Assembly: GCA_001799695.1 (NCBI GenBank)
Contig: MGTY01000053.1
Coordinates: forward strand, 19,940-83,939
Reading direction: 5' to 3'
Length of the DNA stretch: 64,000 nucleotides
Source: Elusimicrobia bacterium GWA2_69_24
Lineage (GTDB): Bacteria > Elusimicrobiota > Elusimicrobia > UBA1565
Shown here: positions 9,782 to 33,569 of the stretch, one piece after another
How the letters are laid out: the number at the start of each line of letters is the position of its first letter
Position numbering within the stretch: position 1 is the first letter of the stretch
Notes under the pieces: generated by a model
What the model was told of the DNA's origin: nothing
What the model saw: the letters and a program-made list of their open reading frames with translations, nothing else
Database searches by the model: none
Position numbers and translations under genes: made by a program

Positions 9782-10708
9782 ATGGCGGAACGCGTCAGAC
9801 TCGTCGTCGCCGACGATTCCCCGGACCTCCTGAGCCTGATGCAGGAAGCCCTGCAGTTGGAGGACTACGAGGTCCGGACCGCTCTCAACGGCCAGGAGGC
9901 TTTGGATCTCATCCACGCCTCCCCCCCCGACATCGTCATCCTGGACCTCTGCATGCCGATCAAGGACGGCTTCGCGGTGTGCCGGGAGCTGAAGGCCGAC
10001 CCGGCCTACCACCACCTCCCCATCGTCATCGTTTCCGCCGCCGGCGCGATGGACCAGAAGATCCTGGGGATGGATTCCGGTGCGGACGACTTCATCACCA
10101 AGCCGATCCGGATCCCCGAGCTTCTGGCGCGGATCCGGATGATCCTGCGGCGCACGCGGCAGGGCCTGGACGCGAACCCCCTCACGCACCTGCCGGGGAA
10201 CCTGTCGATCCAGACCCGCATCACTGAGGCGATCGCGGCGGGCGGCCCCCTGGCCGTGCTCTACATCGACCTCAACGACTTCAAGGCCTACAACGACGCC
10301 TACGGCTATGACGCGGGGGACCGGGTGATCCACGCCACGGGCCGCCTGCTCATCGAAGCGGCCCGCCGGAGCGGCTGCTTCGTCGGCCACATCGGGGGCG
10401 ACGACTTCATCGCCGTCACGGTCCCGGACCGCATGGAGACCCTGAGTCGGGAGCTCATCGCGGAGTTCGCCGCCCTGGCCCCTTCCTTTTATAGAGAAGA
10501 GGACCGTCGCCGGGGGAAGATCCTCTCACAGGACCGCAAGGGGAACACCGTCGAATTCTCCCTGCTCTCCATCGCCATCGGGGTCTGCCACAACGCCCTC
10601 AAACCGCTGACCTCCTACGCCCAGGTCAGCGAGATCGGCGCGGAGCTCAAGAAGTTCGCCAAGCGCAGCCCCGGCTCGCACTACGAGCTGGACCGCCGCA
10701 AGCAGTAG
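9782..10708 (+). CDS. Response regulator with GGDEF-type output domain
   Basis: This 308-residue protein has a receiver domain (residues 5-120) with acidic pair D11-D12, phospho-acceptor D55 and K107. A GGDEF-type domain (about 130-300) follows. Substrate-region motifs (L-T-H-L-P-G-N and Y-I-D-L-N-D-F-K) are intact. The signature reads GGDDF (205-209), a variant also known in some diguanylate cyclase-like proteins, and no RxxD inhibitory site precedes it. It may make c-di-GMP on phosphorylation or act only as a sensor of nucleotide. It is transcribed divergently from the atp operon, which encodes a PilZ protein, a potential c-di-GMP receptor. Confidence 0.88.
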   Translation: MAERVRLVVADDSPDLLSLMQEALQLEDYEVRTALNGQEALDLIHASPPDIVILDLCMPIKDGFAVCRELKADPAYHHLPIVIVSAAGAMDQKILGMDSGADDFITKPIRIPELLARIRMILRRTRQGLDANPLTHLPGNLSIQTRITEAIAAGGPLAVLYIDLNDFKAYNDAYGYDAGDRVIHATGRLLIEAARRSGCFVGHIGGDDFIAVTVPDRMETLSRELIAEFAALAPSFYREEDRRRGKILSQDRKGNTVEFSLLSIAIGVCHNALKPLTSYAQVSEIGAELKKFAKRSPGSHYELDRRKQ

Positions 10709-12040: not shown

Positions 12041-12742
12041 TCACTCGCCTTCTTCGCGCAAGAGGCTGATCTCGATGCGGCGGTTCTGGGCGCGGCCTTC
12101 GGGGGTCCGGTTGTCGGCGACCGGCCGGTACTCGCCGTAGCCGACGCCGGAGAGGCGCTGGGGCTCCACGCCGGCCGCCTGCAGCTGTCCCAGGACGGTG
12201 TAGGCGCGGGCCATGGAGAGCTCCCAGTTGGACTTGTAGCTCCCGCCGCGGATGGGGCGGTCGTCGGTGTGCCCCTCGACCCGGATCTGGTTCTTGCGGC
12301 TGACCACCCCCGAGACCAGCCGCTCCAGCATGGGGACCGCATCGGGCTTCAGCTCCGCCTTGCCCGAGTCGAAGAGCACTCCCTCGCCCAGGTTCAGCGT
12401 GATGCGCTTCTCGCCGACGATGACGCTGGCGTTGGAGCCGAACTCCCCCTTCTCCACGTCCTCCTGCAGCTTCTCGGAGAAGAGCTTATTCAGGTCCCGC
12501 TCCTTGGCCTTCTCGGCCATCTCCTTGGGGATCTCCCCCCCGAAGACCCGGATGACCTTGGCGTAGGCTTCCTCCACCTTCATCTTGTTGGGGTCCTTGA
12601 CCTGCTTGGACAGGGTCCAGCTCAGCATGAGGAGGAAGAGGATCATGAGGTAGCTCATCATGTCCCCGTAGACGATGGCCCAGAGGGCGTTGCGGTTCAG
12701 CTGCCCCTCGAGCTCCTCCTTGCGGAATCGGTAGATGGCCAT
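12041..12742 (-). CDS. MotB-like stator protein with OmpA domain
   Basis: This 233-residue protein has one membrane helix at about residues 18-40 (N-A-L-W-A-I-V-Y-G-D-M-M-S-Y-L-M). D27 stands where MotB has its proton-carrying aspartate. A linker of about 60 residues leads to a periplasmic OmpA-like peptidoglycan-binding domain (residues about 105-230) with V-E-G-H-T-D-D-R-P, N-W-E-L-S-M-A-R-A and N-R-R-I-E-I. Together with the adjacent MotA this should make a membrane-anchored ion-driven stator. It lies 5 bases after motA. No flagellar structural genes other than the FliF/FliG fusion occur nearby. Confidence 0.9.
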   Translation of the reverse strand: MAIYRFRKEELEGQLNRNALWAIVYGDMMSYLMILFLLMLSWTLSKQVKDPNKMKVEEAYAKVIRVFGGEIPKEMAEKAKERDLNKLFSEKLQEDVEKGEFGSNASVIVGEKRITLNLGEGVLFDSGKAELKPDAVPMLERLVSGVVSRKNQIRVEGHTDDRPIRGGSYKSNWELSMARAYTVLGQLQAAGVEPQRLSGVGYGEYRPVADNRTPEGRAQNRRIEISLLREEGE

Positions 12743-12747
12743 CGTCC

Positions 12748-13485
12748 CTATTTGAACGCCATGAGCTTGCGCTCCAGCACGAGCGGGACGGTCCCCTGCA
12801 TCATCCCTATGACGCCTTCGATCACCATGGCCTTCATCTTGATCTGCTCCCACAGGCGCATGCGCAGCTTGCCGGCCACCGGGATGCAGACCAGGTTCGC
12901 GAACATGATGCCGTAGAACGCCGAGGTGATGGCGATGGCCATGGAGCTCCCGACCATGTCCGGGTTGGCGATGTTTTTGAGCACCTGGATGATGCCGAGC
13001 AGGGTGCCGATCAGCCCGAACATCGGCGAGACGACGCCGGCCGTCCGGATGACGTTGATCACCTCGTTGGCGCGGTCCACCCCGTTATTGACCTCGGTCT
13101 CCAGGGTGTGCCGTACGAACTCGGGGTTGTTGTATTCGAGGGCCGTGGTGGCCGCGGCCGCCAGGAACCCTCCCGCGACGTTGGGGTCCGCGTTGCGCAG
13201 GGACCCCAGTCCGTTGCGCTGGACCATCTCCGCCAGGCGGGTGATGAGCGGGACCACCTCTTGCGCGTTGTCGTAGGGGTCGCGGCGGAAGAGGGAGGCC
13301 ATCGCGATCAAGGTCTCGCGCACGTACTGCATGGGAGTGTTGACGAGCATGGCCGCCGCCGTCCCGCCGAAGACGATGAGCAGGCCGTGCAGGTTCAGGA
13401 AGACGCGCGAAACCTCTCCCGAAGCCATGCCCACCACCATCAACGCGATGATGCCCGCCGTCCCGATCATCGTTGCCAGGTCCAT
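12748..13485 (-). CDS. MotA-like stator channel protein
   Basis: This 245-residue protein is of the MotA/TolQ/ExbB family and has four membrane helices: about 5-22, 28-48, 145-168 and 180-200. The two helices after the cytoplasmic domain carry S-P-M-F-G-L-I-G-T and C-I-P-V-A-G-K-L, with the two prolines conserved in MotA. The cytoplasmic loop includes Q-R-N-G-L-G-S-L; the Arg of the FliG-contact region is kept but the partner Glu is not obvious. Length and the long first loop fit MotA (PomA/LafT type) better than ExbB or TolQ. The start codon is directly adjacent to the stop of the coiled-coil gene. Confidence 0.88.
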   Translation of the reverse strand: MDLATMIGTAGIIALMVVGMASGEVSRVFLNLHGLLIVFGGTAAAMLVNTPMQYVRETLIAMASLFRRDPYDNAQEVVPLITRLAEMVQRNGLGSLRNADPNVAGGFLAAAATTALEYNNPEFVRHTLETEVNNGVDRANEVINVIRTAGVVSPMFGLIGTLLGIIQVLKNIANPDMVGSSMAIAITSAFYGIMFANLVCIPVAGKLRMRLWEQIKMKAMVIEGVIGMMQGTVPLVLERKLMAFK

Positions 13486-14595
13486 TTATCCCTTCCCTTT
13501 TCCCTTGTTGCGTTCCACCCAGGCTTGGACGACGGCCATCTGCTTGTCGATCTTCTCCTGCAGGGCTTCCATGCGCTGGCGGCACTCCGCCGCGCGCGCC
13601 CGCAGCAGGGGCGCGGTCCGGGAGTCGGGCGGCTCGTCGCGCACGGACGCCGCGGCCCGCCCCAGTTCCTCGGCCAGGGCGTCCCTCTGCTTGATGGAAT
13701 CTACCATAGTCTCCAGAGCCGCCTCCACCAGGAGCTCCGGCCCGCCCGCCTTCTGCCACTGCCGCCGCGTCTGCTGGAGCGTGGCGAGGAGGGTCTCCTC
13801 CCAGTGGCGCCGCGCCTCGCGCTCCCGGTCCCGCTCCCGATGGGCCTCTTCCAGGCGCCGCTCCAGGTCCGCGACGCGGCCCAGGACGATGGAAAGCTCG
13901 GGGAGCGAAGCCGGACCGGCGCCCTCCGGGGGAGGCGCGGGCGGGACCGGTCCGGACGGGTCCGCCGGCGCGGGCTCGGCGGGAGAGGCCTCCAGCCGGG
14001 CCGTCTGCTCCTGGATGCGCCGCTGGAGCTCCGCGCGGCCCTCGTCCGTCTCCAGGCAGCGCAGGATTTCCTCGGCCGGCACCATACGCAGCTCGGCGAG
14101 ACTAAGCCGGGACTCCAGTTCCCGGAGCCGGGCCTGCGAGGCGGAAAGCTGCTGGCGGAGCAGGCCGTCATATGAAGACGCCCGCTGCTGCTCCCGGATG
14201 TTCCGGAACAGGTCCTCCACCTCGGACTGGGCCTTGCGCTGGGCCTCCTCCCTTTCCTTAAGAAGGAGGTTCGCCCGCAGAGCCTCCTGCTGGGCGCTCT
14301 CCAGCCGCTTCTCCATCAGATCGATGCGCGTCTGCAGGAAGATCGCCAGCTCCGTGGGAGCCTGGGGCGGCTCCGGCGGCGGCGGCGCGGGGGGCGCGCC
14401 GTCGTTGGGAGCCATCTCCATCGGAGGCGGCGCCGCCATCTCGCCCAGCCTGCGCTCCAACTCCTCGAGGCGCTGGCGCAGCGGCGACAACGCCTCCTCG
14501 GATGCCGCGGCGGAGAGAGCCGCCTCGGACGGAGGGGCTTCCTCGGGCGGGGCTTCGCCGCGCAATGCCGCCAGGAGTCCGTCTACATTGGCCAT
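13486..14595 (-). CDS. Coiled-coil protein of the motor operon
   Basis: This 369-residue protein has no signal peptide or membrane helix, so it is probably cytoplasmic. It alternates Pro/Ala-rich linkers (about residues 55-82 and 195-225) with long charged heptad stretches (about 38-53, 84-190, 232-290, 305-365). The C-terminus is basic (N-K-G-K-G-K-G). I recognise no family. It sits 3 bases after the FliG-domain fusion and directly before motA with no gap, so it is surely co-expressed with them. A role as a linker, clutch or scaffold of the motor complex is a guess from its place and shape. Confidence 0.75.
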   Translation of the reverse strand: MANVDGLLAALRGEAPPEEAPPSEAALSAAASEEALSPLRQRLEELERRLGEMAAPPPMEMAPNDGAPPAPPPPEPPQAPTELAIFLQTRIDLMEKRLESAQQEALRANLLLKEREEAQRKAQSEVEDLFRNIREQQRASSYDGLLRQQLSASQARLRELESRLSLAELRMVPAEEILRCLETDEGRAELQRRIQEQTARLEASPAEPAPADPSGPVPPAPPPEGAGPASLPELSIVLGRVADLERRLEEAHRERDREREARRHWEETLLATLQQTRRQWQKAGGPELLVEAALETMVDSIKQRDALAEELGRAAASVRDEPPDSRTAPLLRARAAECRQRMEALQEKIDKQMAVVQAWVERNKGKGKG

Positions 14596-14598
14596 GGT

Positions 14599-17064
14599 CT
14601 AGGCCGGCTTGAGCGCCGTCTCCCCGGCCGCAGCCGACTCGGCCTCCATCTCCACCAGCGCCTGCCGGTGCATGGCGGGGTTCACGACGCGCCCTTCCTT
14701 GATGAGCTTCATGACGATCTGCACGACCCGCTCTTGCGCCTCCTCCCCGACCGCCTCCACCGCACGCACGCCGCGCATCATCTGCTCGATGATGGCCCAA
14801 GTCTTGGGCAGCATCTGGCTCTGCACGGCCTCGCGCATGGCGTCGTCGGAATGGAACAGCGCGGTCGCCCAGTCCTCCAGCGGCACGGAGCCGAGCGCCA
14901 CGGACCAGTCCCGCATATCCAGGTATTGGAGGTCCTCGAAGAGCAGGATGCGGCTGCGGGCCAGGCGCGCCAGGGCCGGGTCGCGCTGCTCCAGGATCTT
15001 GAGCAGCTCCCGCTTGTGCTTGACGTCGGTCTGGTCGATGAGCTCCAGGAGGCTGCGGTGGCCGCCGACCGCGCTCTCCAGGCGCCGCTCGAGCTCCTCC
15101 TTGATGGTGGAGACCACGTCGGCCTCCACGAAACGGATGTTCCCCAGATGGAACACCACCTCGCTGTGCAGGGAGGTGGGGAGCAAGGACAGGAAGCGCT
15201 GGCGGGTCTCCGGCTTGAGGTGCGCGACCACCAGCGCGAAATTGGCCGGCTCCTGGCCGCGCAGGATCTCCATGAGGGTCTCGCACTGCTCCGGCTTCAC
15301 CTCGAAATAGATCTTGTTGCCGGGCTCGGCCTCATCGGCGGCCTTCTTCTCCTCTTCCCCCTCCTCTCCCGCCTTCCCCTCCTCCCCCTTCGGCCCAAAA
15401 TCCATCTGGAGCTGGTGCGCCTGGGCCTGGGCCATGGAATCCATGGCCTCGGCCAGCTTGAGAAAGCACAGGGCCACCACCACCAAGGTGATCAGCGTCA
15501 TGAGGGCGATGAGCGTATACTTGAACAGCAGCCCGATCGCCTCCGGCTGATACCAGATCGTTTTCCACGCCGGAGCGAACGGTACGCGGACCTGGTCGAA
15601 GACATCCCCGCGCTCGCGATCCAGCTGCAGGATGTCTTGGACGATCTTGCCGATAGCGTTGGCCTCCTTCTCCGCGATCGAATCGTCGAGAAGCAGGGTC
15701 ACCGCGAGGCGCTTGACGAAAGCGGATGGGAAGGAGTTCTGCCGCTCGTAGGACTTGTCCCCCCCGAATCCCGCCAGGGGCTCGGGCGACGGTATCCCGG
15801 GCAGGAGTTCGCTGCGTCCCGCCCCCTCGGCGCCGACGTTCTGCCAGAGGAAGAGCGACGCGGGGTCTTCCCCCGCCTTCCCCATGCCGCCTTTCACCTC
15901 GAACTTCTCCACGCGCGTGAAATCGAGCGTCGCGTCCACCACCACGCGGTAGCGGCTCGGCCCCAGGAGCCGCAGGAGCACCGATTCGGCCCGGGTCTCC
16001 AGGGCCTTCTCGAAGGTCGCCTTTTCTTCGAGCGGCAGGCCCTCCGCCGCCCGCGCCGTAGTCGCCGCGCCGGCGAGGCCGAGGGCGAGCAGGGCCGCGG
16101 CCAGGGCCTTGCGCGCCGGCATCTTGGAGGGCTTGAGGGGGATGCGGCACCAGAAGGTGGAGCCCTTCCCCAGGCCCGCGGAATCGACCCCGATGGCGCC
16201 CTCGTGCCCGCGGACGATCTCCTGCGCGATGGAGAGCCCCAGGCCCCAGCCCTTCTTCTTGTTCTTCATGTCCTGGAAGCGGGACTGGTAGAATTTCTCG
16301 AAGATGAGCCCGCGCTCCGAGGGATGGATCCCGGGGCCGTCGTCCTTGACGCTGAAGGTGATGTAGCGCCCCAGGGGACGGACGATCAGCTCCACCGTCC
16401 CCCCCTTCGGAGTGAACTTGACCGCATTGTTGAGGAAATTCATGAGGACGCGCACCAGGCGGAACCGGTCTCCCACGATGGTCACGGCCGGCACGTTCTC
16501 CGGGTAGACGAAGTTGATGCCCGCAGTCTTGGCCACGACCCCGATCGACGGACCCACGTCCCGGATCATGGACCCCAGTTCGAAGGGGACCTTCTCCAGG
16601 CGCAGCTTGCCCGCCTCGATGACGGCCAGGTCGGTCAGGTCGCTCATGAGGTTGTTGATCTGGTCCGTCCCGCGCACGATGTAGTCCACGTACTTCTTCT
16701 GCGTCCCTTCCAGCTCCTGGCGGCTCAGCATCTCCCCGAAGCCCTTGATGGAGGCTAGGGGGGTGCGCATGTCGTGGACCGCCATGGAGAGGAATTTCGA
16801 CTTCATGCCGTTCAGCCGGTCCAGTTCCGCGTTCGACGACTGCAGCTTCTGCGTCATCTTCTCCAGGTCCTGACTGCGCCGGAACACCTGGCTCTGCGCC
16901 GTCGCGAGCTTGGCCATGAAGTCCTGGATCTCGCCCTGGTCCCGCCGGCGCCGCTGCGAATACTTGCCGAACTGGAAGAAGCTGGAGAACTGGCTGACCA
17001 CCAGCATGGACGCCGCCAGGAACAGGAACAGGACCGGGACCAGGACCACGATCACGACTTCCAT
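14599..17064 (-). CDS. Histidine kinase - FliF C-terminal region - FliG fusion
   Basis: This 821-residue protein has, in order: a membrane helix (3-25); a coiled linker (40-85); a HisKA domain with H97 in V-H-D-M-R-T-P-L; a HATPase domain with N-box L-N-N-A-V-K-F and G-boxes D-D-G-P-G-I (241-246) and G-W-G-L-G-L (272-277). A second hydrophobic segment (318-338) follows. A periplasmic region (345-500) has FliF C-terminal hallmarks: L-L-G-P-S-R-Y-R-V-V-V, L-P-G-I-P, a V-K-R-L-A-V-T-L-L-L-D strand and R-G-D-V-F-D-Q-V-R-V-P-F. Then come a helix (511-536), an acidic linker, and FliG middle and C-terminal domains (590-795). FliF domains RBM1 and RBM2 are absent. M315 begins a signal-like stretch, so the last 507 residues might also be made separately. 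Confidence 0.85.
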   Translation of the reverse strand: MEVVIVVLVPVLFLFLAASMLVVSQFSSFFQFGKYSQRRRRDQGEIQDFMAKLATAQSQVFRRSQDLEKMTQKLQSSNAELDRLNGMKSKFLSMAVHDMRTPLASIKGFGEMLSRQELEGTQKKYVDYIVRGTDQINNLMSDLTDLAVIEAGKLRLEKVPFELGSMIRDVGPSIGVVAKTAGINFVYPENVPAVTIVGDRFRLVRVLMNFLNNAVKFTPKGGTVELIVRPLGRYITFSVKDDGPGIHPSERGLIFEKFYQSRFQDMKNKKKGWGLGLSIAQEIVRGHEGAIGVDSAGLGKGSTFWCRIPLKPSKMPARKALAAALLALGLAGAATTARAAEGLPLEEKATFEKALETRAESVLLRLLGPSRYRVVVDATLDFTRVEKFEVKGGMGKAGEDPASLFLWQNVGAEGAGRSELLPGIPSPEPLAGFGGDKSYERQNSFPSAFVKRLAVTLLLDDSIAEKEANAIGKIVQDILQLDRERGDVFDQVRVPFAPAWKTIWYQPEAIGLLFKYTLIALMTLITLVVVALCFLKLAEAMDSMAQAQAHQLQMDFGPKGEEGKAGEEGEEEKKAADEAEPGNKIYFEVKPEQCETLMEILRGQEPANFALVVAHLKPETRQRFLSLLPTSLHSEVVFHLGNIRFVEADVVSTIKEELERRLESAVGGHRSLLELIDQTDVKHKRELLKILEQRDPALARLARSRILLFEDLQYLDMRDWSVALGSVPLEDWATALFHSDDAMREAVQSQMLPKTWAIIEQMMRGVRAVEAVGEEAQERVVQIVMKLIKEGRVVNPAMHRQALVEMEAESAAAGETALKPA

Positions 17065-17115: not shown

Positions 17116-18693
17116 TCATTGCGCTGCCAGCCCCTGGGCGTCCATGAAGCGGCGCAGCTTCTCGTCCGCGGGGTTGAGTTCCACCGCCTTGCGGTACGCC
17201 GTGCCGGCGCGGGCCCGGTCGCCCAGGGCGAAATAGGCCGACCCGAGCCGGGTCCAGGCCAGCGCGTTGTTGGGGTCCACCCACAGCGCCTCGCGCAGGG
17301 CCTCCGCCGCCTGGGCGAACTGCCTCCGGTACACCTCGTCGACCGCCGCCTTCATCTTGAAGGCCACCATGCGCTCGGGCGGCAGTATCTCGTCTCTCTT
17401 CTTCTCCCGTCCGGTCAGCTCGCTGACCGCGTCCAGGAGGCGCCGGTAGGCCTGGATGCGGGGCTCCGCGCCCAGCGCCACGTGGGACAGGAGCGCGGCC
17501 CGGTCGTCCTCGTTGCCGATGTAGGCCTCGACCGCCTGATAGGCGATGAAGGCGGCGGGGGTGTTCTGCTGGAAGGATTCCTGGTCCTCGGGGTGCGCGT
17601 CCAGGTCCATGGCCTTGGCGAGCCGGCGCAGGCGCTCCGCCCGCGGCTTCCACTGGCCTTCCCCGACCTTCGGGTCTATGCCCAGGGCGGTGTCGAGGTC
17701 CTTGGCCGCGGCCAGATAGTCCCGCTTCTTGAGTCCCGCCAGGGCGTTGTTGAGGTATTCTTGCGCGTAGAACTGCATCTTGGGGGGCTTCTTGCCTTCC
17801 GCGACCCGCTGGGACCCGAAGCGATAGCCCACCGAGTACCGCTGCGACATGCCGAGGGTCGGGTGGTTCAGCAGCGCCACGTCGAAGAAATACTTGTCGC
17901 GGAAGCGGAACCCGCCGCCGAAGCAGAGCGCCTGGTCGGTCATCCCGACGCGCAGTGCCGTGATGCCCCAGGCGTATTCGGTCCCGATGCGGAACTCGCC
18001 CCCGTTGGAGACGTCCATGGCCAAGGACAGGGGCCCCGCGACCCGGTACGAGGCGCCGGCGCGGACCAGGAGCTTGAGCTTGTCGTCGGTCCCGCCCTGC
18101 GCGATGCTGAACACGTTCTGGGCCACGAGCCCCAGGAGCAGCCGGTCCCCCACCCACGGCCCGGCCTGGAACCCGACGTCGGCGCCGTAGAGCTGGTCCT
18201 TGGCTCCGCCGAGGCTGCGCTGCAGCAGCTTGAATTTCACACCGGCCGACAGGCTGGGATGGAAGACGCCGCGCCAGCCATGCGCCACGCCCAGAGCCAT
18301 CTCCGAGTAGTCGAAGCCGCCGGTGGGCTGGTTGTACTCGTCGCGCCCCTCGCCGCCCCCCACGTTGAGCCGGATGAACTCCGCGCCCCACCCGCCGGCG
18401 CGCTTGCGCTTGTTCTGCGCGTAGCCGATGTAGTCGTAGGTGGCCCCCTCGAAGAGCTGCGCCCGCATGAGGGAGATCTCGCGGCCGGGCAGGAGACCCA
18501 GGCCCGCCGGGTTGTAGTAGACGGAACTCACGTCCTGGACCACCGCAGTCTGCGCGCTGCCCATACCCAGGCCCCGGGCTCCGGCTCCGAAGGTGAAGAG
18601 CTCCCCGGGCGTCCCGCCGACCCCGGCGGCGCGCGCCGCCGCGGCCAGAGGCCACAGCAGGATCACGCCCCAAAGGACGCGCGCGGTTCGCAC
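17116..18693 (-). CDS. PorV/PorQ-like outer-membrane barrel with C-terminal TPRs
   Basis: This 525-residue protein has a signal peptide (about residues 1-23). It opens with G-A-G-A-R-G-L-G-M-G-S-A-Q-T-A and S-S-V-Y-Y-N-P-A-G-L-G, the signature of the PorV/PorQ/UPF0164 barrels. PorV is the outer-membrane partner of type IX secretion in Bacteroidota. A beta-barrel of alternating strands runs to about residue 330. A helical region and at least two TPR units follow (A-L-W-V-D-P-N-N-A-L-A-W and A-V-E-L-N-P-A-D). The GTG start is preferred over a TTG 30 bases upstream because it gives a proper signal peptide and lies 5 bases after a -10 box. It is the first gene of the motor operon, 51 bases ahead of the kinase fusion. 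Confidence 0.82.
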   Translation of the reverse strand: MRTARVLWGVILLWPLAAAARAAGVGGTPGELFTFGAGARGLGMGSAQTAVVQDVSSVYYNPAGLGLLPGREISLMRAQLFEGATYDYIGYAQNKRKRAGGWGAEFIRLNVGGGEGRDEYNQPTGGFDYSEMALGVAHGWRGVFHPSLSAGVKFKLLQRSLGGAKDQLYGADVGFQAGPWVGDRLLLGLVAQNVFSIAQGGTDDKLKLLVRAGASYRVAGPLSLAMDVSNGGEFRIGTEYAWGITALRVGMTDQALCFGGGFRFRDKYFFDVALLNHPTLGMSQRYSVGYRFGSQRVAEGKKPPKMQFYAQEYLNNALAGLKKRDYLAAAKDLDTALGIDPKVGEGQWKPRAERLRRLAKAMDLDAHPEDQESFQQNTPAAFIAYQAVEAYIGNEDDRAALLSHVALGAEPRIQAYRRLLDAVSELTGREKKRDEILPPERMVAFKMKAAVDEVYRRQFAQAAEALREALWVDPNNALAWTRLGSAYFALGDRARAGTAYRKAVELNPADEKLRRFMDAQGLAAQ

Positions 18694-18698
18694 ACTAT

Positions 18699-18741
18699 AG
18701 TGTAAGGGGGGATCCGCTCCCAATCACGAAGGAATCCTGAA
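18699..18741 (-). promoter_or_regulatory. Motor-operon promoter with tandem activator box
   Basis: Reading the minus strand: TTCAGGATT, two bases, TTCGTGATT, then 17 bases to a -10 box TACACT (18704-18699), then 5 bases to the GTG of the PorV-like gene. The two 9-base half-sites agree at 7 of 9 positions and repeat every 11 bases, one helical turn, with the second overlapping the -35 site. This is the layout used by OmpR/PhoB-type activators. An almost identical box precedes the giant exported protein gene. Confidence 0.7.
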
Positions 18742-18951: not shown

Positions 18952-21900
18952 CTAGTGGATGACGCCGATCTTCAGGACCGATTTGGAGCCGTTGGCCTCG
19001 ATGACGGCGAGGTAGATGCCTTTGGAGACCTTCTGGCCGGAGGCGTCCGTCCCGTCCCACTGCACGGTGTTGGAGCCCGGCGACCCGCCGGCCCCGCCGG
19101 GCGGAAAGGACAGCTGTTTGATGGAGCGGCCGAACACGCTGAAGATCTTGATGGACACGTCGGCGCTGGCGTTGAGGACGTAGTGGATGTTGACGGACCT
19201 CTGCCGGGAATCGAACGGGTTCGGATAGGCGCTGGCGTCGCTGATGCCGCTCCCCGGCAGAGCCCCAAGCTGGATCCGGCTGACGACGCCCTCGGGACTC
19301 AGCACCCCCGCTCCGGAGACGGAACGGATGCGCAGGGTCAGCGTCCCCGCCGGCAGCCCGGTGGCCTGGTAGGAGTTGCCCTGGACCAGGTCGTCGGCGG
19401 TCAGCGCGGCGGCCCGCAGGAAGCTCTCCCCGCGCGCCCCGGCCGGCGCCGCCGCGAACGCCGCCGGGTCGCTGCGCACCTTGGTCCGCGCGTTGTACCA
19501 GAGGGGACTGGAACCCAGCTGGTATTCGATCAGGTAGCCCTTGATGCCCGAGACGCCGCCCGGCAGCGTGGTCCAGGTGAGCAGGACCGCGTTGTCCCCG
19601 CTGGTCACCGTCAGCGCCGGAGGCAGCGGCTTCTGGAAGTCCATGAGCACCCCGTGCGTGGACACTCCCAGTGGGCTCTCGAACACGGGGCTCGCGGGTC
19701 CGGTACTCGCCTGCACCCTCATCGTCACGAAATAGGTGGCCCCATTCAAAAGGGGAAAGCCCGAGGCCCGCACCGCGGTCTGATCCGCCGCGACCGCGGT
19801 CCAGCCCAGGATGTCCGTCGCGCCGGGCGCGGTCCCGACCGCGTAGAGCGCGCCGGTGATCGTCCCGGTCCCGACGCTCGACGCCCAGGAGAACGGCAGG
19901 TATTCGAAATTGCTGCTGAAGTAGCCCTCGGCCAGACTCACGACCGGCTGCGAGGGCGTGCGCGCGTCCAGGATCTTCGGCGCGGAGGTGTTGAAAGGCA
20001 GGTTCGCCTCCGGCGCGGCGTCCGGAGTCGCGATGGTGAAGTCGGTCTGCTGGAGGAGCAGGCGGACATCGGCGCCCACCGTGGCGTCCACCTTGGGCTC
20101 GACCGTGATGAAGTAGGTCTGCGTGGCGACCGCGACGGTCTGGGCCGAGGAGAAGGCGATGGACGCCTGGCTCCCGCTGAAAGCCGCGCTCCCCACCAGC
20201 AGGTCGGGGTCCGTGAAGGAGCCCGAGCCGTCCAGGTCGCGGTAGATCCCCACCGTCGTGATCTCGTTGGTACCCAGCGTCCCGGCCTGCTGGACGCGGA
20301 GCTGGGTCCAGAGCGTCTTGTTGCGCGAGGCGCGGGCCTCCAGCTTCACCAGGGCCGCCTGCGCGCCCTGGTTGATGCCGTTGACCGCCAGGTCCGTCGG
20401 CAGGACCAGCAGCCGCTCGGCGAGCTTCTTCATCGAGGTGTTCACGTCGGACAGGATGGGGTAGCCTTGATTGACCCCGAAGTTGGGGCTCACCAGGCTG
20501 AACGCGGCCGTGGATTCGAGCACCACGGCCAGGGTCCGGCCCGGCTCGGCGAAGGGCGCCACGTCGACGGTGAGCAGGAAGCGCTCCTGCTGGGTGCCGA
20601 TCTCCTGCACCGGATTGAGGCTCACCACCGCGACCCCGCCCAGGAAGGTGTTGAGGCCCGAGGTGATCTTCGTGTCGGTGCCCGCGTCGACGGTCCCGTT
20701 CTTGTTGACGTCCTCCCACACGTTGACGGCGGCGATGTCGGAATCCGTCGCTGTCCCGCTCGAGCGCACCGTGATGGCGTTCCAGGTCAGGGCGTACTGC
20801 GTGGTCTGCAGGCTCAGGCTCAGCATGACCTGGTCGGTGGCGGCCTGGGTCAGTTCCCCGGGCGCCTGGTTCGTGCCCACGACGAACAGCCCGGTGCGGG
20901 TCGCCTGGATCGCGCTGTTGAGCGACTGCAGGGGGAAGTTGAGCGTGGAGACGGTGTTGGGGGTCTCGATCTTGAAGTCTCCGGCCGCGGGGATGCGCGC
21001 GCCGACGGTGTCCCCCGTCCCCGCCGTGGTCTTGATATCGTAGGTCAGGAAGTAGGTCTGGGTCGAAGCCGTCACCGTCTGCGTGGAGAAGCGCAGCTGG
21101 GCCGCGCCCCCGACGAAGGTGGCGGTGCTCAGCCGGCGGTCGACGGCCACGGTGAGCAGCCCGTCCCCGTCCTCGTCCCGGTACAGCTTGACGAAGGGCA
21201 CGTCCGCGTCCGCGCCGGCCCCCGAGCGCGTCACCTTCAGCTCCGACCACGCCCCGCTATGCCCCGACATCCAGGCCCGCAGGGTCAGCATGGGGACGTT
21301 GGCGTCGCCCTGCGTGACCGTCGCGGGAGCCGAATCCCCCCAGACCACGTACATGGTCTCGGGCGGAGGGTTGATGGCCAGCGCCCCCGACACGAAGCTG
21401 GTGTTCGTGTTCAGCGTGTTGGGCGACTTGACCGTGAAGAAACCCGAGGTGTTGGCCCGCGCCACGATGGCCTTCCCGGGAGCCGCGCTCGTGCTCAGGT
21501 CCACCACGAGGAAGAAGCGCTTCTCGTTGGGGGCGGGGGACAGCACCGGATTGGTGCTGAAAGTCAGCAGCACGCTGCTGGCCCCGTTGTCCCCGAAGCG
21601 GTTGGTGGTCGAGGTGACCAGTTGGTACTGCGCCAGGTTGGACGAGTCCCAGCTCCCCGCCCCGTTGATGTCGTAATAGAGCTTCACGGACGCCACGTCC
21701 GCGTCCGCCGCGCTCCCGGTCTGATCCACGCGCAGGCTGAGCCACTCCGCGTCGGACACATCGGTCTGCAGCACCAGGCTCATCAGGCCGACGTATTGGG
21801 CGCCCGGTTCCGCGCCCAGGGCCGGCACGATGCTGGCCGTGGTCACGGTCACGGTGTTGGCGAACTGGGTGATGTCCACGGGTCCGCCCTTCAGGGGCCA

Positions 21901-24900
21901 GCTCACGGTCTCCGAGGAGACCACGTTCGGGGCGAAGAGGTTGAAGGCGCTCGTCGTCGTGACCAGCACCCCGACGGACCTGCCGGGGACCGCGCCGTCG
22001 GCGATGCTGGCGGTGATGAAATAGCAGCGCGCCATCGTGCTGATGGTCTGATTGAGGGCCATGCTGACCGTGCCGCTCACGAAGACGTCCACACCGCTCG
22101 TCACCCGGGAGTCGATGCCCACGTCGAACGCGCAGTCTCCATCGTAGTCCCGGAACACGTTCACCGCGGCGACGTCCGAGTCCGCGGCCGTCCCCGTGCT
22201 CTTCACGGTCAGCCCCAGCCAGTCGAACTCGTTCTTGCTGGAGACCACCTTCAGGCGCAGGAGGGCGGCATGGTCGCTGCCCTGGACCAGGGCCCCTCCG
22301 GCCTCGTCCCCCCACTCCGGGATGAGGAGCTTGTTCACGGTGGCGGTGATGGCCCGGGTCGAGGTCTGGATGGGGAAGGGGCCCGCCACGCCGGTGTTGG
22401 CGTCGGCGACAGTGAGGTCGTTGCCGCTGGTGACCTTGGCCCCGAGCTCGTTGCCGGGATTGGCGCCGGGGTGGATCTTGTAGGTGACGAAATAGACGTA
22501 GGTGGTCCCGACGATCAGGGTCTGCGTAGAGAAGCGCAGGGTCGCGGCGCCCCCCGAGAAGGCGGCCGAACCCAGGGAGACGTCCAGGGTCCGGTTGAAC
22601 GGCGCGCCGTCCGGGTTCTGGTCGCGCCAGAAGCCGACGAACTCGACGTCGGCGTCCGAACCCGCCCCGGTCCGGCTCACCTTCAGCTGGCGGAATTGCG
22701 CCGTCCCGGCGTCCACGGTCAGCGTCGTCTTGAGCACCGCGTACTCCTCCCCCTGCACGAAGGCGGCGGGGAGCTCGCTGAGCGGGGAGACGGTGATGGT
22801 GTTCTGCAGGATCACGTTCAGCGTGCTGCTCTGGATGGGCTTGAAGGGCATCACCACCGTGTCGGCCCAGTTCTCCAGGGTCACGTGACTCTCCGTCGCC
22901 ACCTGCAACTGGAAGCCCATGTTCTGTTCCGCGTCCGCCGCCAGGTCCACGGCCAGATACAGGCGCCGCTCCACTACCGTCCAGGTCCGCGAGGACGTCT
23001 GGGCCGTGAACACGACGGTGGAGACCCCGTTGGAGAACGGGCTGAAGCCCGAGCTCAGCCGCTCGTCCCCAGCCGGATCGAATACCCCGTCCATGGGATC
23101 CGCGTCGCGCCAGACGCTGAGGCCCGTGATCTTGTTGGGCGCCAGCGTCCCGGACATGGTGACCACCATGCTGCTGATGACGCTGGTCCCCGTATTGGTC
23201 TGCCCCCGCAGCTCGATCATGGGGATGTTGTTGGCTCCCGGCTGCGCCCCCCCCGCGGGCGCCAGGCTCGCGGGCGTCAGGAGCAGGTTGTTGGCGCCGT
23301 CCGTGATCGGGATGAGGCTGGTCGTCGTGGGGAACACCCCGAAGGCGTGCCCGGGATGGCGCAGGACGATATCCGTCGCGGAGCTGATCTCCAGGCCGAT
23401 CGACAGCCCCACGCTGGCGGCCGGATCCATCCGGTACACGACGAAAAAGGTGCTCACCACGACGTCCAGGAGCTGCGATTTGGCCACCGCGGCCAGATCC
23501 ACCCGGGCCTGCCCCGAGTCCAGGGAAGCCTCGGCCAGCAAGGTATCGCTGAGCGCGCTGAACGCCGCGTCCCCGTTGTCGCCGTAGACGCGCACCTTGT
23601 CCACGTCGCCGTCCGCGGCGGTGCCGGTGCGCTTGACCCAGACCCCGTCCAGGTAGGGGGCGGCATAGGCGTCCGCCGCGCTCCGCTTGAGCGTGAAGCC
23701 CAGCATGGGGACCAGCCCGTCCTGCAGGGCGCTGACCGGCAGCACCGCGAAGGTCGAGTAGTCGACCGTGGCGAAAGTGGCGGTCGCGGCGAAGACCGCC
23801 GGGGTGGATACGTTGAGGACGCTGTCGCGGGCGATGACCCGCACGTAGTAGGTCGAGGCGCTCAGGAGCCCCGTGAAGGTGTAGGTCGACTGCGGCACGA
23901 ACGGCGAGGCGGTGACCGGGGGATCGAAGAGGCTCGAGGTGGAGGCCTCGAAGAGATAGTCCTGGATGCCGGTCAGGGTGTCCGTGGCCCAGGCGGTCAC
24001 GTAGAGGGAGTCGGTGGTCAGCGGCGTCAGGGAGGTGACCTCCGGCAGGGGCACCGAGGTGTCCACCAGCACCGAGAAGAGCCCCGCCGAGCGGACGTTG
24101 CCCGCCCGGTCGGCCGCGATGAAGCGGAGCTGATTGGTCGCCCCGCAGGCGGCCGCCTGCGCGCAGACCGCGGAGTTCGTGGATTCCGTCAACGTCAGGT
24201 TGCGCGCCTGGATGACCGCGTCGTTCGGCGTCCCCGAGACCGACAGATAGGCCCCGCTCCCCGGCGCCGTCGAGCTCACGGCGTTCCACTGGCTCCCGGC
24301 CGTGGTCGAGTAGAAGAGGTAGTAGTGGGGCTCCCGGAGCTCGGCCTGGAGCTCGGCCGGGGTCAGCGCGGCCCCGAAGATCCGCGCCTCATCGATGCGG
24401 CCGTTGAGCGGCTGCGCGGTCCCGAGGGCGATATGCCCGTCGTTGCCGAAACGGTACGGCGTGTCCCCGGGGGTGCCCGCCCCCGCGCAGGACGCGGCGA
24501 GCCGGCCGTCCACGTACAGCCGGTTCTCCCCGGCGGCGAAGGCCATCTCGAACGCGAGATGCGTCCAGGTCTCGGCGTTGAACGTCTGGGCGGTGGCCAA
24601 AGCGCAGCCGCCGTTCTTGGCCGGATCCGTCTCGACCTGATAGAGCACCTTCCCCGCGTCGGCCTTATACCACAGCCGGGCCTGCTCGGAGGCCCACACC
24701 GTGGCCGAGCTCACGGTGAGCACTCCCGGCCGCACCCAGATGGCCGTCGTGAGGCCCGGGTAGCCGAGGGCCGCGATGGTGCCGACGTCCACGGAGTCCC
24801 CCGCCCCCGCCCCGACGCCGATCCCGGCGCCGGCCACCGCCGACGGACGCGTGGGACTCCCCCGCAGGGACCCATGCCGCCCGTTCCCGGAGGCGTCCAG

Positions 24901-27900
24901 AGCCAGGCCCCCGGAGCCTTCCTCGAAGTGCCAGGTCCCCAGCCGGTTGAGGAGGCTGGCCGGGACCAGGGAGAGCCCCGAGTTCAGGTCCTGGAATTCG
25001 AATTGCGCGGTCACCCCGGCGATCAGGTTGCCGAACATCGGCTCGCTGAGCGTCCCCCCCGTGGAGTTGAAGTGGGCGTACGCGGCCGTGCTGGGGGCCG
25101 TGATGTCCATGGCGAAGGAGACGGGCAGGGAGAACCCGGTCCACAGGCCCAGGGAGTTGCGCGCCTGGACGCGCCAATAATAGGTGGCGGCGTCGGGCAG
25201 GCTCGACGGGGAGGTGAGCGTGAAATTGCCCGTCTGCTGGTTCACGATGAGCGCCGAGAAATCGGCCTGATTGGAGACCTGGACCAGATGCGTCGGCTGG
25301 GTGCTCGCCTCCAGCCAGGAGAACGTCGGCTGCCCTTCCCGGACGAACTGGCCGAGGCCCGGGTATTGCACGGTGGGCTGGCTGAGCAGGGGGTCGACCA
25401 GGATCGCATAGGGGCCGGCGCTGAGGACCCCCCCCGCCCGGTCGCTGACCTGGAAGCGGACCTGGTTGGTCGCGCTGCAGGCGGAGCTCCCGCCGCAGAG
25501 GTTGCCGTTGATCGAGTTGCGCAGCTGCAAGCCCTGGACCTTGAGGGTCTGGGGTCCCAGGTCCCCGTCCGTCCCCGAGAGGACGGCGGCGATCGGCGTG
25601 GAGACGAGTACGACCGCCTGGTCGGGGTCCGCGTGCATCCCGAAGTAGAGCCGGCCGCCATAGGGCTGCAGGGCGCTGACCCGGTCGTTCGCGTTCCCCC
25701 AGCTGCGGCCTCGGAGCCAATCCCTGCCGTCGAACATGTAGAGCCGGGCGGTGTTGCTGGGACCCACGCCGGCGTAGAGCCGCCCCCCATGCACCCCGAA
25801 GCGGTAGATCTCGTCCTCCGGGGCGTCGAAGACGGCGCTCGTGTTCCAGGTCCGGTCGAAGCGGAACACCCGCCCCGACTCGTCGGTGCCCGCGTACAGG
25901 GCCCCGTTGAAGGACTTCAGGGCGAAGATCGTCGCGTTCTTGGACAGGGAGACCGCCCAGATGCTCCCGTCGAACATGTAGATGTCGGGATAGCCGCCCG
26001 CGAAGAGGCGGCCGTTGAACACCTCGAGGGAGTAGAGCTCGGTCGAGGGAGAGTCGAAGGCGACGTACCAGTTCCCGGAGACCGGGTCGTAAGCCCAGAC
26101 CCGCCCCGAGTCGCTGGTGGCGGCATAGAGCTGCCCGTTGTACTCCTTCAGGGCGTTGATCCGGATCGGGGCGCCGAAGTCGTGGGCGGGGGTCCAGCTC
26201 GTCCCGTTGTAGCGATAGAGGATGTCGGAGTCCCAAAGGCCCGCATAGAGCTGTCCCTGGAACTCCGCGAGCGCCGAAACGGTCGTCCCGGTGAGCAGAG
26301 CGCTCTGGGTCCAGGCGGAGCCGTCGTATTGGAAGACCTTGGCCAGCGGAGAGGTCCCGGCGTACAGCTTCCCTTGATATACCGCCAAGGACGCCACCGC
26401 GGCGGCGGGGTCGGGGACCGGGTCGACGAAGGCCTGTCCCCACGACCCCTCGAACCACTCCGCGTTGTAGGTCGGGGGCATGCTGACCCCCGCGGTCGTA
26501 TAGACCACCCCGTAGGGCGGCGCCTCCGCGACCGCGGAGACCGCCAGCCCGGCGGGTCCCGCGTCCGCCGCCAGCGCCTGCGCGGTCACCGGTGCGGCGA
26601 GGTCGATGTTCAGGCTCTCCGGCATCGCCCCGTCGGTCGAGTTGAAGACCACATAGCCCGAGGCCGTGGGGCTGCCGAAATCGGTCACGAAGGAGGCGAC
26701 GGTCAGGTCCGGGGAGTAGTTCCCCAGCGCGCTCCGGGCCCGCACGCGCCAGAAGTAGGTGGTGGCGTCCGCCAGTTCGATGACCGGGACGTACCCGCCC
26801 TGGGTATAGAAGGCGTCCGCCGCCGCGGCCGCCGCCGGGGTGGATACCGATATCACGGGGCCCGCGAACGCCCGGTTGGCGGCGACCTCGAGCAGGAACA
26901 CGGGATTGGCGCCCATCCCGACCAAGGAAGCCGTGCTGGGCCCCCGCCAGGCGAAGTTGGGGGTCGTGCTGACGTAGACCCCGTCCATCGGCAGGGTGGG
27001 GGTCGAGACGGAGGCGGCGGCCACCGTGTCCACGATGACGGCGTAGGGGCCGCTCAAAGTGTAGTTGCCCTTGCGGTCCACGCTCATGACGCGGAGCTGG
27101 TTGGTGCCCCGGTTCCCCGTCAAGGTGGAGGTCGAGTGGGCGAGGGACAGGTTCCGGATCGAGAGGACGTTCGCGGTCGTGTCCCCGGGCGCTCCGCTCA
27201 GCTCCAGGTACGGAGCGCCGCCCACGGCGGCGGTGGCGCTCACCACCTGCCAGGAATAACCGGCCGAGGTCGACACCTCCACTCCGAAGCGCCCTGGGGC
27301 GGTCTGCTGATAGGAATCGGCGACCTGCCCCGCGTCCAGCGCCGTGCTGGACACGCGCACCTCGTCCATGAGCCCGACATAGGAGCCGGACCAGACCCCG
27401 AGGTTGTTGATGGCGGTGCCCAGGGAGAAGTCCATGCTCGCCCCGCCCGAGTTCCCGGGCCAGGCTCCGTTCGCCTTGAGCACGCCGTTGACGTAGAAGG
27501 AGACGTTCGTCCCTCGGATGACGGCCGCCAGATGCTGCCAGACACCGGCCGACACCAGGGCCGTGGGCGTGAGGAAGCCTCCCAGGGAGGCGTTGGTCAT
27601 GTAGAGCTTGCCGTCCTTGATGCGGAACGCGTAATTCGTGCCGGCGCCCACGAAGATGTCTCCCAGCGCGGCGATGACCCGCTCGTTGTCCACCCGGTCC
27701 GGATTGAGCCAGGCCTCGATCGTGAAGTCGCTCCCCGCGGGGAAGTCGAACTGCGCTTTGGCCGCGGTGAGGCCCTGGCCGCCGTTGCAGCGCAGGCCGG
27801 CCCCGAACGCGGTGAGGCCGTAGCGCGCGGGCTCGCAGCCGCCCCCGGTGCAGGTCAGCGTCCCGGTGTTGCCGTTGCCGCTGGCGTCCAGCGACGAGAG

Positions 27901-30900
27901 GCCCTCGGTCTCGTTGAAGGTCCAGTACGCCACCGGCCGCGGGCCCAGCGGGGCCGCCGCGGGGCGGGACAACCCGGCCGTGACGTCCTGCAGGGTGACC
28001 TGGGCCGTCACCCCGGTCCGCAGGTCCACGTAGTTCGGCTCCAGCGCGACCCCGCCGGTCGAATTGAAGACCTGGAACCCGGAGGCCGCGGGAGAGGTGA
28101 TGTCCGTCACGAAGGTCCCGGTCGGCCCCCACGGCCCGAACAGCCCCAGCGCGCTCTGCGACCGGACGCGCCAATAGTAGGTCGTGCTCTCGGCCAGGGT
28201 GAAGCTGGAGAGGTAGACCCCGGTCACCCAGGGCACGGCGATGTCCGCCACCGTCGCCGGAGTGGATATGCTGATGCGGACGTTCGCGGCTCCGAACGCC
28301 GGGTCCCCGCTGGATACCTGGACGAAGAACCTGCCGCCCATTCCCTGCACCATCGGCGTCGACGGCCCCATCCAGTAGAGATCCGGCCGGTTACCGGCGA
28401 AGCTCCCGTTCCCGGGGAGCATGGGGGTGGAGAGGGAAACGGGGGTGTTGGTGTCCACCAGGACCCCGAAAGGTCCGGCGGTCAGCACGTTCCCCGCCAG
28501 GTCCGCGGCGTGGAAGCGCAGCTGGTTGGTGGCCCGGTTCCCGGTCAAGGTGCTCGTCGAGGTCACCAGGTCGAGCGCCTCCACCCGCAAGGTATGGTCG
28601 GAGGCGGCCGCGCCATGCGCCCCCGTCCTGGACACGTAGCGGACGTCCGCGCTGCGCGTGGAGGCCACGACCCGCCACGTCCGCCCCGCGTCCGTGGAAT
28701 AGGAGACGAAATAGGGGTCCCCGCGCCCGCGGTCGGCCGCGACCTCGTCGGCCGAGAGCTCGCGGTCGAGGATGCGGGCCTCGTCTATGACGCCCTTGAA
28801 GAGCTGCCCGTTGTCGTTGCGCCCCACATAGAGGATCCCGGCATCCGTCGCCTGGACCCCGAACGCGGCGGACCCCAGGTCGCTCCCGTCCAGGAAGAAG
28901 CGGCCGGCCGAACCGTCGTAGGTGAAGGCCACGTGCTGCCAGGCGCCGGTGCTCAGCACCGGGCCCAAGCTCTGGGTCGCCCCGCCCATGGTCACCGTAA
29001 GGCGGCCGTCGCTCAGGAAGAAACGCATCGGCTCCGAGTTTCCCCAGCCCAGGATCCCCAGCGCCCCGGCCGTAGACGCCGGCCGGATCCAGGCTTCCAC
29101 GGTGCGGGCGGAAGCGCCCAGAGGCAGGCGCTCCGGAGAGGTCTTGCGCAGGTCCTCGCTGCCGGTGAACTGCAGTCCCGTCCCGAACCGCCCGGCGGCG
29201 CGCGTGGGCGTCGCCGACACGGGGGTCAGGACGTTCAGGCCGGAGGCCGCGTCCCCCCAGGAGGCTCCCGAGGCTTCGTCGAACCGGTACAGGCTCACCG
29301 TCCCGCTCACCGGAGCCGCGGGCGCCGGACCGTCCAGGCTCAACCCCGAGGTCGCGTCCCGGACCGTCACCTGCGCCGTCACGCCCGAGGCGAGGTCGTT
29401 GAACTGGCTCTCGCCCAGCGCTCCCCCCGTCGAATCATAGGAGACGAAGCCCGAGCCCTGGGGCGGCGTGCGGTCCACCCAGAAAGGGCCGAAATCCTGC
29501 TGGGTCCCGGCGCCGCCCGGCTGTGGGTCGAAGGCCCGCGCATGGAAATACCAGTCGCTCCCATCCGCGGTGGCCGTGTACGTCGCCTTCTTGTTGGCCG
29601 AGGTCCAGGAGGGGGCCGCCTCCGTCATATCGGTGGCCGGGGCATTGTCCCAGGCGGCATGGAAGTGGTCGACGTTCTGGGCTCCGAAGTTCCCCACGAA
29701 GACGATTGACGAGATGTTCACCCAGGCCCCGGCGACGGTCTCGGCCGTCACCCGCGCCTCCGCGCCCACCACCGTGCGCGTGGCCGATTTTAGCGGAAAG
29801 GTCCCGGTGTCCATGCTGTCGGTAGACCCGGCCAGCAGGAAATCCTGGGTCGCCGCCAGCTGGAGGCCGAGGTCCGCCGTGAGCTGGGCGGAATCGCCCA
29901 CGTCCCAGGAGAAGAAGAAGGTCTTGGTGGACGCGCTGACCGTCTGCGCCTTGCCTTGCGCCGCCAGGGTGAAGGTAGCCTTCCCCACCGCGAAATTCGC
30001 CACGGTCTGGAGCAGGGAGTCGACGGCGGCATCGAAGACTCCGTCCCCATCGTCCGCGTACATCTTCAGGTCGGCGACGCCGCTCTCGGCGCCCGTCCCG
30101 GCGTGCGCGACCGAGACCTGGTTCACGGTCGCGAAGTCGCGGGTGGTCCAGAGCTGCAGCTTGAGCAGCGGGACCAGCGTCTGATTGCGGAACATGAACG
30201 AGGGGGTGATGTCCGTCCCGCTCGCGTACAGGACGTCGGCGACGTCGTTGACCACGGTGTTGGTCGAGCGGCCGTAGCCCTGGGGCTCGCCCTGCATGCT
30301 GCCATGATTCGCGGTGACCCCCCCGGCGTCCGGGACGATGGCGCTCTCCCCGCTGAGGTCGAAGTGGTAGTGGGCCACCGTGCTGCCGTCGGAGGAGTTG
30401 CGCCGGGCCGGCACGAAAGCGGTGGAGGTCGAGTAGCGCACGAAATTGGAGACCCGGACCTCGTCGAGCTCGCCGTCGAGGTACTGGCCGGAGGCGTCCG
30501 CCGTGTTGGGCCCCCCCACGGCCAGGTCGCTCACCGCGTCGCCGATCCCGCCGCTGAAGCCCGCCCCGGTCAGGGGCGCGCCGTCCACGAACAGCATGCG
30601 GCCGACCGTGGCATCCTGCACGGCCGCGACATGGTGCCAGCGGCCGTCATTGACCGTCACGGGACTGCCGTCTCGGGACGCGCAAAGGGCGACGTTGCCG
30701 ATGAAGAAGGTGGGGACTCCGGCCGCGCAGCCCCCCGCGCCCAGCCAGAGACGGTAGCCGGTGCCCCCCGTGGAGTTGCCGCGGGTGATGACGGCGCGGT
30801 CGGCTCCCGCGTCCGTCGTCCGCAGCCAGGCCTCCAGGGTCAGGGCCGTGACGTTCATGTTGGGGTCCACGGCGGCGGTCAGCCGGTCGTTCAAGCCGTC

Positions 30901-33519: not shown

Positions 33520-33526
33520 TACTGGA

Positions 33527-33569
33527 AGGTTAGCCGGGAAAGGTCCGGCAATCACGAAATAATCCTGAA
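33527..33569 (-). promoter_or_regulatory. Promoter of the giant gene with tandem activator box
   Basis: The same architecture as at 18699-18741: TTCAGGATT, two bases, TTCGTGATT, 17 bases, -10 box TAACCT (33532-33527), 7 bases, GTG 33519. Twenty of 22 bases match the other box. The identical 17-base spacing from the half-site to the -10 box in both copies argues for function. Confidence 0.7.

Follow-up and report, generated by a model that had tools for sequence, protein, structure and literature searches.

The window, a 64,000-nucleotide stretch of the genome of Elusimicrobia bacterium GWA2_69_24, contains an operon on the minus strand with a reading frame (14599-17064) that encodes a histidine kinase and parts of a flagellar-type rotor in one chain. 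The frame starts with the ATG at 17064, runs to 14602 through 821 codons without internal stops, ends with the stop codon at 14599-14601, and has orthologues in other genomes. An earlier note on this DNA, which did not give the strand, had described a kinase, a FliF-like region and FliG in one continuous frame of 821 residues. This description was confirmed for the frame by the absence of stops and for the domains by Pfam, PDB profile and AlphaFold/Foldseek matches. Pfam models match in the order HisKA (residues 87-152, E 9e-18), HATPase_c (198-311, E 4e-25), part of the FliF C-terminal model (446-496, E 5e-5, barely over the cut-off), FliG_M (595-665, E 6e-10) and FliG_C (691-793, E 8e-15).

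The kinase part (residues 1-314; 16123-17064, minus) was assigned by Pfam, alignment, and Foldseek matches to GacS, HK853 and others. It has an N-terminal membrane helix (residues 3-25) followed by a coiled coil, a HisKA domain with the motif HDMRTPL (His97), and a HATPase domain in which the N, G1 and G2 boxes are intact. The motifs of an active kinase, that is, the phospho-acceptor histidine and the ATP-binding N and G boxes, are kept across the alignment of orthologues. No sensor domain was recognised in the kinase part, which has only the one N-terminal helix, and therefore its input probably comes from the membrane or the rotor by contact.

The kinase is followed by a candidate internal signal peptide (residues 315-339; 16048-16122) with a predicted signal peptidase I site ARA/AE after Ala339; the sequence across this site is ..TTARAAEGLPLEEK. 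Next come a FliF-like periplasmic RBM3/collar domain (residues 340-510; 15535-16047), a membrane helix (511-536; 15457-15534) belonging to one long predicted helix, the FliG middle domain (595-665; 15070-15282) and the FliG C-terminal torque domain (691-793; 14686-14994), all on the minus strand. The profile of the rotor half matches FliG (1lkv, E 2e-27) and FliF chains (9yh6, E 3e-6) in PDB. The AlphaFold model of the FliF-FliG half (pLDDT 78) matches in Foldseek the FliF RBM3/S-ring structure 8z5v (3e-6), also 8z4g, 7cg7 and 6sd1, and the FliG middle and C-terminal domains of 1lkv (1e-10). Global confidence of the full-length model is low (pTM 0.31), and the domain arrangement was not read from it.

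The rotor half is a minimal one. RBM3, the ring-building domain of FliF, is present, and RBM1 and RBM2 are absent from the fused protein, as the periplasmic region of about 171 residues models as RBM3 alone. The two membrane helices of FliF are not both retained, the first helix of the rotor half being signal-like. The middle and C-terminal domains of FliG are present, and no Pfam match to the N-terminal, FliF-binding domain of FliG was found in the fused protein; the covalent link between FliF and FliG replaces this domain. In the torque segment some charged positions of Thermotoga FliG are gone, with LDDRS..R replaced by LDxRDW..G. Since these positions are partly lost, generation of torque by FliG_C is not certain.

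In the window's order of Elusimicrobiota the operon consists of a giant surface protein, a PorV-like barrel with TPR, the kinase::FliF-FliG fusion, a coiled-coil protein, MotA and MotB. In family f8 the gene order is PorV, kinase, MotA, FliF-FliG, coiled coil, MotB. All genes of the window's operon are on the minus strand. The giant protein (18952-33555, 4867 aa) has LamG and Ig/fn3 repeats and a C-terminal domain resembling FlgD_ig and T9SS type A tails; three LamG domains were seen in it. Homologues of its tail are encoded upstream of PorV at 14 of the loci read in this order. The outer-membrane barrel of the PorV/PorQ family with a C-terminal TPR (17116-18723, start codon uncertain) matches PorV_fam with E 2e-18 and 67 bits, under the NCBI cut-off of 90 bits. 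Downstream of the fusion are a proline/alanine-rich coiled-coil protein of no known family (13486-14595, 369 aa), conserved in position, and a MotA-like stator subunit (12748-13485, 245 aa). They are followed by a MotB-like subunit (12041-12742, ATG at 12742) with the membrane aspartate (VYGDMMSYL) and an OmpA peptidoglycan-binding domain. This pair has the features of a stator: the MotA fold, the MotB plug and transmembrane aspartate, and the OmpA domain. The MotB membrane aspartate and the proline-containing helix of MotA are kept in nearly all loci.

A scan of genomes found the same full-length protein in four other Elusimicrobia-type assemblies. Gene neighbourhoods were read at 16 loci of the window's order and 16 loci of other orders. 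The frame is fused at 15 of the 16 orthologous loci of the order, in three families, and at six of the seven loci of the window's own family. The exception in both counts is G005, the sister of the window's genome. Thus orthologues are not always separate genes, the contrary case that the earlier note had considered. In other orders kinase and rotor are encoded separately, the kinase gene immediately preceding a FliF-FliG gene whose product starts with an ordinary signal peptide.

The earlier note had suggested two genes that lost the stop between them. Indeed, in the split relatives the kinase ends and the rotor starts at the point matching residue 314 or so. In G005 (L050:7149) the TGA of the kinase overlaps the ATG of the rotor (ATGA) at the same point. 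On sequence similarity, the kinase of the split operons is the same dedicated kinase as the fused one, because full-length kinases from split operons match the fused kinase with E 1e-116 to 1e-133 (the G005 kinase with 4e-170), whereas the remaining kinases of these loci score no better than about 1e-40.

One might suspect an assembly or sequencing error that took out a stop codon, as the window comes from a draft assembly in 132 contigs and its relative G005 is split. The probability of that is close to zero: independent assemblies of other species, with full-length fused proteins 36-66% identical to the window protein, share the open junction, and this recurrence excludes both chance and sequencing error. 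A missed stop or frameshift was also ruled out, the junction being equally open in 15 loci. The frame is a true gene fusion of two neighbouring genes, widespread in one Elusimicrobiota order. On the tree of rotor halves the fused and split states require two changes, which fits a single fusion in the order followed by a split in G005; the tree is unrooted, and the direction of change rests on the grouping of orders. The split in G005 is apparently a re-split of the fusion.

Split rotors of other orders have signal peptides mostly ending in ..A-Q or ..G-Q in the same alignment column, and the G005 rotor begins with the signal peptide MRLAGLFFAFALPAAA/QT. All fused proteins have kept a weakly hydrophobic, signal-like segment where the signal peptide of a split rotor is expected to be cut, and it ends in alanine before Q (or A). 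Alanine occupies position -1 in all 15 fused proteins, of which 11 have A, V, G or T at position -3 and four have L or I. When the segments were shuffled, the mean number of alanines at -1 was 4.4, and none of 20000 shuffles reached 15, relatedness being ignored in this count over rows that span 36-66% identity to the window protein. The junction segment is otherwise the least conserved region, with modal identity 0.43 versus 0.56-0.77 in the folded domains.

The earlier note had placed three membrane segments in the protein, with the kinase inside, the FliF-like region outside and FliG inside. The three segments are as described and the topology is supported; the middle segment, however, is far less hydrophobic than the others and looks like a signal peptide. 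Its Kyte-Doolittle maximum over 19 residues is 1.5 in the window protein, versus 3.0 and 2.8 for the two other segments. Over the fused proteins the maximum is 1.1-2.15 for the junction segment and about 2.2-3.0 for the two membrane helices. In the full-length AlphaFold model residues 315-343 have pLDDT below 50 and are not like a transmembrane helix. All eight genomes of the window's family have a gene for signal peptidase I. From an internal signal-like segment ending in alanine before Q or A, cleavage by signal peptidase I is predicted, and the enzyme probably cuts the precursor after Ala339 into kinase and rotor. A point against cleavage is the leucine or isoleucine at -3 in four fused proteins, which is tolerated, not ideal.

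Separate products could also arise by initiation at Met315, the second product being a rotor precursor of 507 residues with its own signal peptide, a product considered by the earlier note. In the window it is possible, and an ATG lies at the junction or close to it there and at loci L009, L052 and L092-L094. However, the Met315 position is GTC in L010 and CAG in L011, the junction of L012, L088 and L089 has no Met, and the DNA upstream of Met315 shows no obvious strong ribosome-binding site. Several fused relatives have no start codon there, which rules out an internal start as the general route, and internal initiation is a rather improbable explanation. As the start codon is not conserved, translation must read through the junction in several relatives.

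Finally, the protein may stay whole. Each rotor subunit would then carry its own kinase, there would be about as many kinases as ring subunits, and the state of the motor could be read directly, similar to the suggestion in the earlier note of one working polypeptide feeding torque into signalling. The fused frame is retained at 15 of 16 loci in three families, the active-site motifs of the kinase are kept, and the topology fits. On the other hand, an alanine at -1 before a conserved Q is not needed by a purely structural helix, the segment is weakly hydrophobic and signal-like, and the same operon encodes separate proteins in other orders and in the sister genome. A permanent kinase-rotor polypeptide is thus possible, less likely than cleavage; we consider it unlikely, and the suggestion of direct feeding is not supported, as the signal-like segment with alanine at -1 predicts cleavage.

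Elusimicrobiota have been reported to have no flagellar machinery or genes (PMC11257099, PMC7031533). In a search of 341 genomes of the phylum, mostly metagenome-assembled drafts, the export gate protein FlhA was found in five and was not detected in the window's genome (85% complete, 132 contigs). The five FlhA-type export gates (G004:C59, G117:C78, G124:C22, G174:C2, G176:C208) may stem from true flagella, from a different type III system or from contamination. FliM/FliN C-terminal domains were found in none of the eight genomes of the window's family, with working positive controls. An ordinary flagellar operon is ruled out for the window by the lack of detected FlhA and FliM/FliN in its genome, an absence that the earlier note had not seen. 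As the genome has neither a detectable export gate nor FliM/FliN, the rotor probably belongs to something other than a flagellum.

Proteins of the FliF-FliG kind are encoded in 153 of the 341 genomes, often several per genome. In the window's genome there are four further FliF-FliG-type genes without a kinase (G000:C42:32361, C104:17999, C130:67369, C119:1561; loci L046-L049). Three of these adjoin MotA/MotB in the stretch read, and the one in C42 also adjoins PorV and a giant protein. The C42 operon additionally encodes, between FliF-FliG and MotA, a 767-aa protein without a Pfam match (L047:6650-8950, minus). The absence of FlhA and FliM/FliN and the loss of some torque-segment charges might indicate a decayed flagellar remnant with no motor function. 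However, the spread of these proteins over the phylum, the conserved key residues of MotA/MotB and the conserved gene order in the loci read make such decay very improbable.

The overall reading that we consider likely is a fusion of a dedicated kinase with a FliF(RBM3)-FliG rotor, from a non-flagellar rotary-motor operon, into a precursor that is then cut. The ribosome would make one kinase-rotor precursor. What was once the rotor's signal peptide is now internal and would deliver RBM3 to the periplasm, with the preceding kinase and the FliG domains behind the final membrane helix remaining cytoplasmic. Once cut after Ala339, the kinase would end in a newly acquired membrane tail, and the FliF-FliG rotor would be a protein of its own. 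A single precursor would set a 1:1 ratio of kinase to rotor and the place of insertion. MotA and MotB, encoded in this operon too, would drive the ring, and the kinase would probably read ring assembly or motor state by contact. An internal signal peptide in one precursor has a precedent in Bradyrhizobium FbcH, where a cytochrome b/c1 precursor is cut at such a peptide into two membrane proteins. However, FbcH is respiratory, whereas here a kinase and a rotor are joined and cleavage is only predicted.

No description of the operon or of a kinase-FliF-FliG protein was found in the open-access literature. With the flagellar MS-ring and C-ring driven by MotA/MotB the system shares RBM3, the FliG middle and C-terminal domains, and stator proteins with the membrane aspartate and OmpA domain. 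It differs in that a single protein combines FliF, represented by RBM3 alone and preceded by a signal peptide of the cleavable type, with FliG; the FliG N-terminal domain, FliM/FliN and the export gate were not found; and the rotor is fused to a kinase and linked to PorV-like and giant surface proteins. A single FliF-FliG chain can form a ring, as artificial or mutant fusions do, including the engineered Vibrio FliFG S-ring (PMC11481574). However, Vibrio FliFG is an engineered fusion with full-length FliF from a normal flagellum, whereas the window protein is natural, minimal and non-flagellar.

The other related system is the type IX secretion (T9SS) and gliding machinery of Bacteroidota, which in Flavobacterium is powered by GldLM (PMC8986121). 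Features that the two may share are a proton-driven inner-membrane motor, a PorV-family barrel, an SprA/Sov-like protein, and large surface proteins with sorting-like C-terminal tails. The SprA_N Pfam model missed the window's family; a relative's protein as the query identified an SprA/Sov-like homologue of 1860 aa in seven of the eight family genomes, with 174 bits to the SprA model (cut-off 200). In the window's genome this gene is broken over contigs G000:C44 and C109 (query residues 17-682 and 665-1860). The motor of Bacteroidota is GldLM, whereas here it would be FliF-FliG/MotAB; in the 341 genomes no GldM was matched and no GldL exceeded the cut-off, in searches without a working positive control, the GldM search giving no signal in its controls either. 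Another difference is that the PorV and tail matches are here under curated cut-offs, the sorting-domain match of the giant protein being 20.8 bits (NCBI cut-off 23).

The rotor would probably work at the outer membrane via the PorV-like barrel and the giant protein, perhaps as the power source of secretion or gliding by a T9SS-like system. Tentatively, and with somewhat less than even confidence, we propose that Elusimicrobiota lacking flagella have several rotary motors of the FliF-FliG/MotAB type, that these are linked to giant surface proteins and PorV-like barrels and take the role of GldLM in powering T9SS-like secretion or gliding, and that in one order the rotor precursor carries its own kinase reporting rotor assembly or load. 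This would be a second way of supplying the outer membrane with power. The predicted internal cutting site and the fused rotor point to a hitherto undescribed motor, one that may power secretion or movement at the cell surface. A flagellar rotor core is found in 153 genomes of a phylum reported to have no flagellar machinery, with the stator adjoining the rotor in the loci read. A FliF-FliG ring without the export gate, and without FliM/FliN in the window's family, would show which parts make up a flagellum-free rotary motor and bears on the origin of flagella.

The kinase is encoded in the operon of the rotor, in one order as part of a single frame with it, which makes sensing of the motor state directly testable. 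The regulators near the operon vary, with no constant partner: response regulator-GGDEF proteins in the window and G005, OmpR-type winged-helix proteins in L009 and L051. The latter are encoded directly 3' of MotB (L009:10986-11645, L051:5789-6511), and a receiver domain was not recognised in them. The response regulator-GGDEF gene of the window (9782-10708, plus) is a possible output partner of the kinase, as a lead only. Genes of this type lie close to both the fused operon and the split operon of G005 (L050:13145-14137, minus), and an output via c-di-GMP is possible.
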